DNA from: Fistulifera solaris
Lineage: Eukaryota; Bacillariophyta; Bacillariophyceae; Naviculales; Stauroneidaceae
Direction of reading: 5' to 3'
Length of the DNA stretch: 64,000 nucleotides
Assembly (NCBI GenBank): GCA_030295235.1
Contig: AP026126.1
Location: forward strand, 1,240,001-1,304,000
Shown here: piece by piece, positions 12,837 through 15,298 of the stretch
How positions within the stretch are numbered: position 1 is the stretch's first letter
How the letters are laid out: every line of letters starts with the position of its first letter
Notes under the pieces: model-generated
What the model saw: the letters and a program-made list of their open reading frames with translations, nothing else
What the model was told of the DNA's origin: nothing
Databases searched by the model: none
Translations under genes and position numbers: made by a program

Positions 12837-13275
12837 TGTGTGAAAGCTCTGTTGTGTTTTTAAGCGCTCTTTTGTCTCCCACGGTGTCTATGCTGTTTCA
12901 CCGAAGATCATATAACATCCGCGAAGTCGGTAGTCCAGCGAACCGAAAGAATAGAAAAGGATGAAAAAGCATGCGTTGGCTTTTATTGCGGATGACTTTT
13001 TCACGTTTCTCAGTCCGATGACGTTTCATAGTATAAGAGTGGAACAGGTATTCTTTAATAATTGAAAGTCTTTGGTACCGGTACGTCATTCAGTGTTGCA
13101 GGTGCATTTTTTGACGTGTTCGTTATCCTTTTGACCACATCGCAAAACGACAAAATGAATTTCGTTGCCTTCTTTTTCCTCGTTCTCTCTCCGCGACGCC
13201 CAAAGCCTTCATCTTTCGTCATACGTGACTATTTGCTACATGATGGTAGCAAGACATTTATCGGCGATTAACAGG
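12837..13275. promoter_or_regulatory. Divergent promoter region, SBF2 gene / Nudix gene
   Basis: Spacer between the minus-strand SBF2 gene and the plus-strand Nudix gene. It could hold both promoters. An in-frame upstream ATG for the Nudix gene lies at 13165, but the later ATG gives a better presequence. Confidence 0.45.
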
Positions 13276-14280
13276 ATGCGTTATCTTCGATTGGTGGGAA
13301 CGATCTCGGGCTTGGTAGCATTTCCCCCTTTCGTTCATTCCTTTGCGCTGCCAACTGTAGTACAGGACGGACAGAAACCAACCGTTTTCAAAAGATTCTT
13401 CGCATTGTCATCTCGAGCATCCTCTGAAATGGAAACAATGGCTGGATGTGACGATAGATGGAGTGACATTCTTCCGTTTGAAACAGGTAGTCACAATTCT
13501 GCCAAAATAATCATTCCTTCCGCATTTTCTAGCAATGACCCCTTTCTTTCACAAAACATTACAAATTTATTCCAATCGACGGTTCTAGCCTGCAAGATGA
13601 ATGATAAATCGAGTATATGGGTGCACGTTCCCATGACGCGAAGTTCTATCATCGAGGCCGGTCAATTGTACGAGTTGGGATTTCGTTTTCACCACGCCAT
13701 AGACGACGTTTCCGTATTGAATTTATGGCTCCGTAACAGTGAAAGCAAAGTCCCCAATTTTTCGACACATAATGTGGGAGTGGGTGCCTTTGTTGTGAAC
13801 AGCCAGAATCAAGTTTTGTGTGTTCGCGAACTACGGAAAAATTATATGCCGTGGAAAACGCCCACAGGAACCTCGGAATTGGGAGAATCGATCGAAGATG
13901 CCGCAATCCGAGAAGTGTTCGAAGAAACAGGGATCCGAACGACGTTTCATAGTATTCTTGGGTTTCGTCAAACGCATGGTATGGCTCACGGGAGATCCGA
14001 CCTGTACTTTGTTTGCCGTCTCGATCCGATCGAAGAACAGGACGACAGGGGCAATGTCGTCATTCCTACACCTTGTGCTCAAGCATGTGAAATAGAAACT
14101 GCCGAATGGGTCCCTTTCGATGATTACAAGCGAATGGTCGACGGAGAAGGTTCTCAAAAAGGTCATCCGATGATGTCTCATGTAGTTCACGCTTACGAGA
14201 TGGGTCGGATAATCGAAAAGAAAGTGGTGGCAAGTGTAGTTCCTGGTCGCCTACCCAATGATGTCTACTTTCCTCGATAA
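13276..14280 (+). CDS. Nudix hydrolase, NUDT6-like, probably plastid-targeted
   Basis: Nudix-family pyrophosphohydrolase of 334 aa. From ~125 there is a pre-Nudix domain as in NUDT6 and plant NUDT2/10 types (WVHVPMTRSSIIEAGQLYEL, then NVGVGAFVVNSQNQVLCVRE). The Nudix box is complete (GTSELGESIEDAA then IREVFEETGI). Family members hydrolyse ADP-ribose, NADH or related nucleotides; the substrate here is unknown. I chose the ATG at 13276 because it gives a signal-peptide-like start (MRYLRLVGTISGLVAF) followed by HSFALP, close to the diatom plastid ASAF motif. An ATG at 13165 is also in frame. No introns and no frame break. Confidence 0.85.
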   Translation: MRYLRLVGTISGLVAFPPFVHSFALPTVVQDGQKPTVFKRFFALSSRASSEMETMAGCDDRWSDILPFETGSHNSAKIIIPSAFSSNDPFLSQNITNLFQSTVLACKMNDKSSIWVHVPMTRSSIIEAGQLYELGFRFHHAIDDVSVLNLWLRNSESKVPNFSTHNVGVGAFVVNSQNQVLCVRELRKNYMPWKTPTGTSELGESIEDAAIREVFEETGIRTTFHSILGFRQTHGMAHGRSDLYFVCRLDPIEEQDDRGNVVIPTPCAQACEIETAEWVPFDDYKRMVDGEGSQKGHPMMSHVVHAYEMGRIIEKKVVASVVPGRLPNDVYFPR

Positions 14281-14408: not shown

Positions 14409-14696
14409 TTAACGGGCCCGTTGACGCATCTTACGACGCTTGCGTCTGAGACGACGCATGCGCTTTTTGCGCCACTTGGGACGCATACCGGCCTGAACTT
14501 CCAAAGCCATGGCGAGTTCGTCCTCTTCTTCGACACCGTTGGCAGCCAAAGTGCCACCCTCGAGGATATCACTGCCGCGCATGAGGCGGATCTGACCAGA
14601 AGGAACAAATTCCTTGTTCTCAATGGCGAGTTTGAGCGACTCAACCGAGTCGGTGGCGTCCACGTTGTACGCCGTAGCACCTACGAAAATCTGCAT
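14409..14696 (-). CDS. Ubiquitin-like / ribosomal protein eL41 fusion
   Basis: A single 95-codon open frame. Residues 1-70 are a ubiquitin-like fold: MQIFVGATAYNVDATD start, LKLAIENKEFVPSGQIRLM core, GSDILEGGTLAANGV. It is closer to FUBI than to ubiquitin, and ends ...LEVQAG. Residues 71-95 are a complete eL41 ribosomal protein (MRPKWRKKRMRRLRRKRRK, then MRQRAR) including its own Met. Ubiquitin or UBL fusions are known for eS31, eL40 and eS30; I do not know of one for eL41. Cleavage after AG, not the usual GG, would release a normal 25-aa eL41. The gene is convergent with the Nudix gene, 128 bp from its stop. The frame is uninterrupted and the eL41 part abuts the UBL exactly, so an error-made fusion is unlikely. 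Confidence 0.9.
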   Translation of the reverse strand: MQIFVGATAYNVDATDSVESLKLAIENKEFVPSGQIRLMRGSDILEGGTLAANGVEEEDELAMALEVQAGMRPKWRKKRMRRLRRKRRKMRQRAR

Positions 14697-15298
14697 GATT
14701 GCTGTTTTTAGACAACTGGTTGCTCAGACCTAACAGCACGAGTATGAATGGTAAGATATATAGCTCATAAGAATGAGTGAAATAATAAAAAGGCTCATTT
14801 TGGTAATTCCACGCTATGAAACCTTCACGATTTCAAGTCACAACGCCTTAAAGGCGTCAAGCGGGCACATAAATCGTGACATGCTTCAATCGCTGCAACC
14901 GCGCCTCTTGCAAAGCACCGACTGGCTCTCAATACCAATCCAGGACAAGCTATATTCACGAAGGAACGAAATGATAGAAAATAACATATTTATCGAACAT
15001 ACCTTATTACAAGGGAACAGACTGCAGTTATGAGTGTTTCGTTGAAAGGCTGCGGTGGAGGGAGGCTCAACAGCACTGCGTACCTCTAGTAGCGGTCCGT
15101 ACATTTTGTACGCAAAAGGAGCACAGCCTGAAAATTGGAGGACGAGAAGGCATCGAAAACAAAGTAGCGGACGACGAGAAGACGGTCCTTCAGATATGTA
15201 GACATCGATTTATGGTGTGACACAATCCTACAGTATGAGTGAGTGAAGAAGTGCCGCAGTCCCATCCCCTTTCGCACGTTCGTCGCGAATGCAGCGTG
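14697..15298. promoter_or_regulatory. Divergent promoter region, UBL-eL41 / SF3B1
   Basis: About 0.6 kb between the divergent starts. No supported gene. A small plus-strand open frame at 14773-15033 has no recognisable features. Confidence 0.4.

Follow-up and report, generated by a model that had tools for sequence, protein, structure and literature searches.

The restriction of ubiquitin and ubiquitin-like (UBL) fusions to so few ribosomal proteins has been called a mystery (PMC8122580). Ubiquitin-eS31 and ubiquitin-eL40 are the two standard fusions; a third precursor, FUBI-eS30 (FAU), is described for humans and other holozoans, and the removal of FUBI from eS30 is required for 40S maturation (PMC8354635). 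A survey of ubiquitin fusions additionally mentions a few to eS8, eS19, uL1 or eL41 among Pfam proteins (PMC8122580), and its statement on ubiquitin-eL41 is repeated in PMC11354881. Here we describe a gene of the diatom Fistulifera solaris in which a diverged UBL domain is joined directly to the ribosomal protein eL41. The gene lies in a 64-kb stretch of contig AP026126.1 (C6:1240001-1304000, hereafter the window), and the genome searched for comparison comprises 51.7 Mb in 61 contigs. A 25-nt primer published for the F. solaris gene g510 (PMC13276009) has a single, exact match in this genome, and a control pattern has none.

A diverged ubiquitin-like domain abutting eL41

On the minus strand of the window, positions 14696-14409 form a single uninterrupted frame of 95 codons and a TAA stop (coding sequence 14409..14696), with the same frame in the homoeologous gene on contig C5. 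The frame encodes a 70-residue UBL domain (MQIFVGATAYNV...ALEVQAG; 14487..14696) followed, without a linker, by a complete 25-residue eL41 with its own Met (14412..14486). The junction reads EVQAG|M (14484..14501) where the RLRGG tail of ubiquitin aligns. A preliminary description of this locus had proposed both that a UBL is joined to a whole eL41 with its own Met in one 95-codon frame and that the junction is AG|M rather than GG; the frame, its translation and the domain scans bear these proposals out.

The eL41 part matches Pfam Ribosomal_L41 (PF05162; E 4.7e-9). The fusion scores 32.2 bits against this family, above the curated cut-off of 22.3, and the 25-mer alone scores 36.5 bits and covers profile positions 1-24 of 25. 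Over residues 1-24, the best PDB chain is identical save for positions 3 and 24 (E 4.4e-6); under the naming of some PDB entries, the protein is eS32. A genome search with the 25-residue query returned two matches, the gene on C6 and its C5 homoeolog, and the same two are the only exact matches to the pattern WRKKRMR. A pattern for the C-terminal half of eL41, with one mismatch allowed, occurs at four places, two of which are the fusion gene and its homoeolog; the other two, on C1 and C2, were considered as a second, intron-split eL41 and rejected as lysine/arginine-rich stretches that are not eL41. No second eL41 gene was found in the genome by the 25-residue query or the DNA patterns, which a gene split by an intron within the patterns would escape. 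As the sole eL41 detected, the fusion seems to be the cell's only source of this protein.

The UBL part starts with MQIFV, as does ubiquitin, and alignment places it as a homologue of ubiquitin (PF00240 family). It is identical to the diatom's own ubiquitin at 25 of 70 positions, versus 21 of 70 for FUBI, with alignment scores of 97 and 64, respectively. Its last glycine aligns with ubiquitin G76, and lysines are retained at the positions of K27 and K33. Glutamate stands at the R72 position and alanine at the G75 position, and the β1-β2 region is 5 residues shorter than that of ubiquitin. The UBL is best explained, from these comparisons, as the capture of a ubiquitin unit that was independent of FUBI-eS30. 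A transfer of FUBI from eS30 to eL41, an idea prompted by the apparently bare eS30 gene of this genome described below, is not supported: the alignment favors a ubiquitin source, and a 13-row tree did not resolve the placement of the UBL.

The diatom gene resembles FUBI-eS30 in that a diverged UBL that has lost most of the ubiquitin lysines is joined directly to the N terminus of a small basic ribosomal protein located close to the decoding center. The two are also comparably distant from ubiquitin, FUBI being 36% identical to it (PMC10611586). They differ in the tail, EVQAG in the diatom versus the conserved RXLGG of FUBI, and in the shortening of the β1-β2 region relative to ubiquitin, by 5 residues in the diatom UBL and 2 in FUBI (PMC10611586). 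They differ as well in the partner, since the diatom joins its UBL to eL41 and has an apparently stand-alone eS30 gene, which starts MGKVHGSLARAGKVKGQ... from its own ATG. In the C2 copy of eS30, an in-frame TAA lies two codons upstream of the ATG with no AG between them, and none of the 92 places found by a Pfam ubiquitin scan of the genome lies within 25 kb of eS30, in a scan that also missed the UBL of eL41. To judge by its sequence, eS30 thus appears unfused; these observations could still miss a diverged domain that is encoded by a remote exon and spliced on within the first codons. A bare eS30 in a diatom would agree with the holozoan FUBI-eS30 of PMC8354635.

The standard fusions are canonical in this genome, with two copies each of ubiquitin-eS31 (RLRGG|GKKRKKK) and ubiquitin-eL40 (RLRGG|VYDPTLA). 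Like UBL-eL41, they consist of an N-terminal ubiquitin-type domain that abuts a ribosomal protein without a linker, but they have canonical ubiquitin, a GG junction and other partners. The closest match in partner is the ubiquitin-eL41 of Table S2 in PMC8122580, where the same two protein families are joined. The preliminary description had stated that no fusion was known for eL41, and this holds only in part: that table lists near-canonical ubiquitin-eL41 fusions, whereas the literature searched, mostly open access, yielded no account of a diverged UBL-eL41, nor of one in diatoms. PMC8122580 selected domains that share 80% or more identity with yeast ubiquitin, a filter that would have discarded the diatom UBL because of its 25/70 identity to the diatom's ubiquitin. 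The diverged UBL-eL41 is new as a variant, but fusions joining ubiquitin to eL41 were known before it.

Constraint between homoeologs and codon usage

F. solaris is described as an allopolyploid with 42 homoeologous chromosome pairs and 75% overall homology (PMC5935921), and the pairing of contigs C6 and C5 agrees with this. Both carry the same UBL-eL41 fusion. An alignment of the two regions (3,355 columns, each gap scored as a difference) gives 84.1% identity, and the coding sequences differ at 6 positions, 5 of them synonymous and 1 a replacement (A7 to S). Over 65.2 synonymous and 219.8 nonsynonymous sites, this corresponds to a Fisher p of 0.003 for the whole coding sequence; taken alone, the UBL part (3 synonymous versus 1 nonsynonymous) gives p 0.04 and the eL41 part 0.05. 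When six changes were placed at random in 20,000 trials, at most one replacement was obtained in 0.3%.

Codon usage was scored with weights taken from the ribosomal parts of the eS31, eL40, eS30, eS21, eL37 and eS27 genes. On this scale, the UBL of either homoeolog reaches a codon adaptation of 0.65, which exceeds all 139 background chunks (median 0.49, maximum 0.644), each of 70 codons and drawn from 36 nonoverlapping open reading frames (ORFs) of >150 aa in the window; some of these mechanically called ORFs may be spurious, and such scores partly follow amino-acid make-up. The 11 reference coding sequences, scored with their own weights, range from 0.64 to 0.82, and the eL41 part reaches 0.58 on C6 and 0.70 on C5. 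In a looser, earlier version of the test, whose reference included ubiquitin and whose background ORFs overlapped, 158 of 159 chunks fell below the UBL. Because of the substitution pattern between homoeologs and the ribosomal-protein-like codon usage, both read from the genome, we conclude that the UBL is translated, probably at a high level, and under constraint.

Proposed processing and competing readings

UBL-eL41 is probably a genuine fusion precursor, and most likely an independently evolved, FUBI-like one, for which we infer a single transcript, a chaperone role of the UBL and cleavage at AG|M by a protease. A promoter lying shortly before the UBL ATG would drive a single mRNA, to be translated as the 95-residue protein. 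The 37 bases that adjoin this ATG on its upstream side (14697..14733, minus strand) form a leader that is identical in both homoeologs and places an A at −3, and a TATA-like stretch about 60 bases upstream of the ATG (CTATATATC, in the homoeolog CTTTATAAAT; 14755..14763, minus strand) may serve as the promoter element. The UBL could act as a cis-acting folding or expression aid for the extremely basic 25-residue eL41, whose helix of mostly arginine, lysine and methionine makes it a plausible client, as eL40 is for ubiquitin; in yeast, ubiquitin helps eL40 production and SUMO partly replaces it (PMC6721733). A deubiquitinase or UBL protease would then cut after G70, either ahead of 40S assembly or in the course of it. 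The genome contains 55 PF00443 matches of USP-type deubiquitinases, with exons and homoeologs counted apart. We infer that the UBL is removed because, in an archaeal 30S, the residues that precede the eL41 helix are enclosed by h27, h44 and h45 in an rRNA cavity close to the P site (PMC7005279); such a cavity could not accommodate a folded domain of 70 residues, an argument transferred from an archaeal structure to a diatom.

Several observations weigh against this precursor reading. The diglycine found at the junction of known ubiquitin- or UBL-ribosomal protein precursors is absent; in human cells, the G73,74A change makes FUBI-eS30 noncleavable (PMC8354635), and the ubiquitin-eS31 of Giardia, which is not cleaved, has an additional alanine at its junction (PMC8122580). 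Our literature search found no case that bears on whether a single G75-type change is cleaved. The UBL scores 20.5 bits against Pfam ubiquitin PF00240 (21.7 for the domain alone), below the gathering score of 25.4, and is missing from the 92 genomic places noted above; a scan of the UBL against NCBIfam, a prokaryotic library, gave no match. Searches with the fusion protein produced 28 candidate stretches in a viral contig collection and 249 candidates in a prokaryotic one, none of them confirmed, and neither the exact eL41 DNA pattern in the viral contigs nor the same pattern with a Gly codon before the Met in the prokaryotic contigs was found, misses in viral and prokaryotic collections that say little about diatoms. 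The evidence for conservation accordingly consists of the two homoeologs. The archaeal origin of the cavity argument and the mechanical background of the codon test belong on the same side of the balance. As for the AG junction, it is not in itself a bar to cleavage, because a single glycine precedes the processing site in UFM1 and ATG8.

A more far-reaching version of the precursor reading is tentative, and we think it rather doubtful: UBL-gated licensing at the decoding center might have evolved twice, as FUBI-eS30 near the A site in holozoans and as UBL-eL41 near the P site in the diatom, the latter with a dedicated AG protease. If true, removal of the UBL by this AG-specific enzyme would be what makes new 40S subunits competent.

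Alternatively, the UBL may stay in place, with UBL-eL41 carried by all ribosomes or by a subset. This reading is kept because of the noncleavable human FUBI-eS30 and the uncleaved ubiquitin-eS31 of Giardia; the latter likewise has a non-GG junction involving alanine, but it differs in its partner, in having the extra alanine between the glycines and in being reportedly retained in all ribosomes (PMC8122580). N-terminal extensions of eL41 do occur: 27 eL41 sequences were matched in the PDB, and 10 of them have lengths of 33-41 residues and carry as many as 16 residues ahead of the core, yet these extensions fall far short of 70 residues. The cavity lined by h27, h44 and h45 also argues against retention, as does the revision of Giardia eL41, whose initially longer annotation was cut back to agree with the structure (PMC8860606), and we regard a retained UBL as unlikely.

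We hold it to be similarly improbable that the UBL, once released, serves as a novel modifier that is produced in parallel with ribosomes and conjugated to targets of its own. Its terminal glycine, aligned with ubiquitin G76, its lysines at the K27 and K33 positions and the single-glycine processing of UFM1 and ATG8 would fit such a role. However, the residue at the R72 position, which is the one read by the ubiquitin E1, is a glutamate, and G75 is replaced by alanine. The glutamate in particular makes it less likely that a released domain would behave like ordinary ubiquitin; together with the lack of a GG junction, it leaves the processing and the stoichiometric UBL release suggested by the preliminary description as conjectures.

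A far weaker case can be made for the production of eL41 by initiation at its internal Met, the UBL then being a distinct function of that mRNA. The internal ATG has a G at −3, but to reach it by scanning, a ribosome must first bypass the three ATGs of the UBL part, all in frame and the first with an A at −3, and no stop separates the two parts, so that initiation at the UBL also yields the fusion; we consider this reading very improbable. Finally, an assembly or frame artefact, or a meaningless upstream open frame, for which the subthreshold Pfam match and the absence from the genome scan might be cited, can be set aside almost entirely, as it is largely refuted by the homoeolog substitutions and the codon-usage test; the expectation of the preliminary description that the fusion is no artefact has been strengthened by the C5 homoeolog, the constraint on the protein and the codon usage of the UBL.

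Genomic surroundings and significance

Downstream, the gene converges with a NUDIX hydrolase gene (window 13240-14280, plus strand; Pfam NUDIX 6.3e-19), which ends about 130 bases away. The sequence TCACGATT occurs four times in the window, and two of these sites lie upstream of UBL-eL41 (14825 and 14872), as two also do in the C5 homoeolog. Elsewhere in the genome, both copies of eS30 (loci L011 and L012) carry the sequence once, at −66; the sites ahead of eL41 and eS30 fall within 400 bases of these genes. We do not claim it as a common ribosomal promoter motif, as none was present within 400 bases upstream of the examined eS31, eL40, eS21, eS27 and eL37 copies.

The genome also contains ubiquitin fusions to a nonribosomal partner. 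At three loci (L024, L026 and L027, on C20, C9 and C19), ubiquitin is intact from residue 2 and is followed by a nickel superoxide dismutase (NiSOD) domain starting with HCQVPCG; L024, the one of the three that was scanned, matches Pfam Sod_Ni (1.5e-14). Ubiquitin-NiSOD fusions are mentioned for algae (PMC8122580). A cluster of diverged ubiquitin-like units occupies C45:268112-281180, where L035 consists of such a unit and a NiSOD-like stretch with the HCQVPCG start altered to RGICDD; judging from these remnants, it looks as though a ubiquitin-NiSOD gene multiplied and then decayed. Two long open frames of 1450 and 1189 residues, at C27:44585-47683 and C29:31922-35020, respectively, also contain many diverged ubiquitin-like tandem repeats.

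UBL-eL41 constitutes an independent experiment of nature: an extra fusion beside the two standard ones, with FUBI-like divergence and in the sole detected source of eL41. Its naturally occurring non-GG junction could be used to probe protease specificity in an organism for which genome editing exists (PMC13276009), and the fusion could help to separate the chaperone, supply and licensing explanations for UBL-ribosomal protein fusions.
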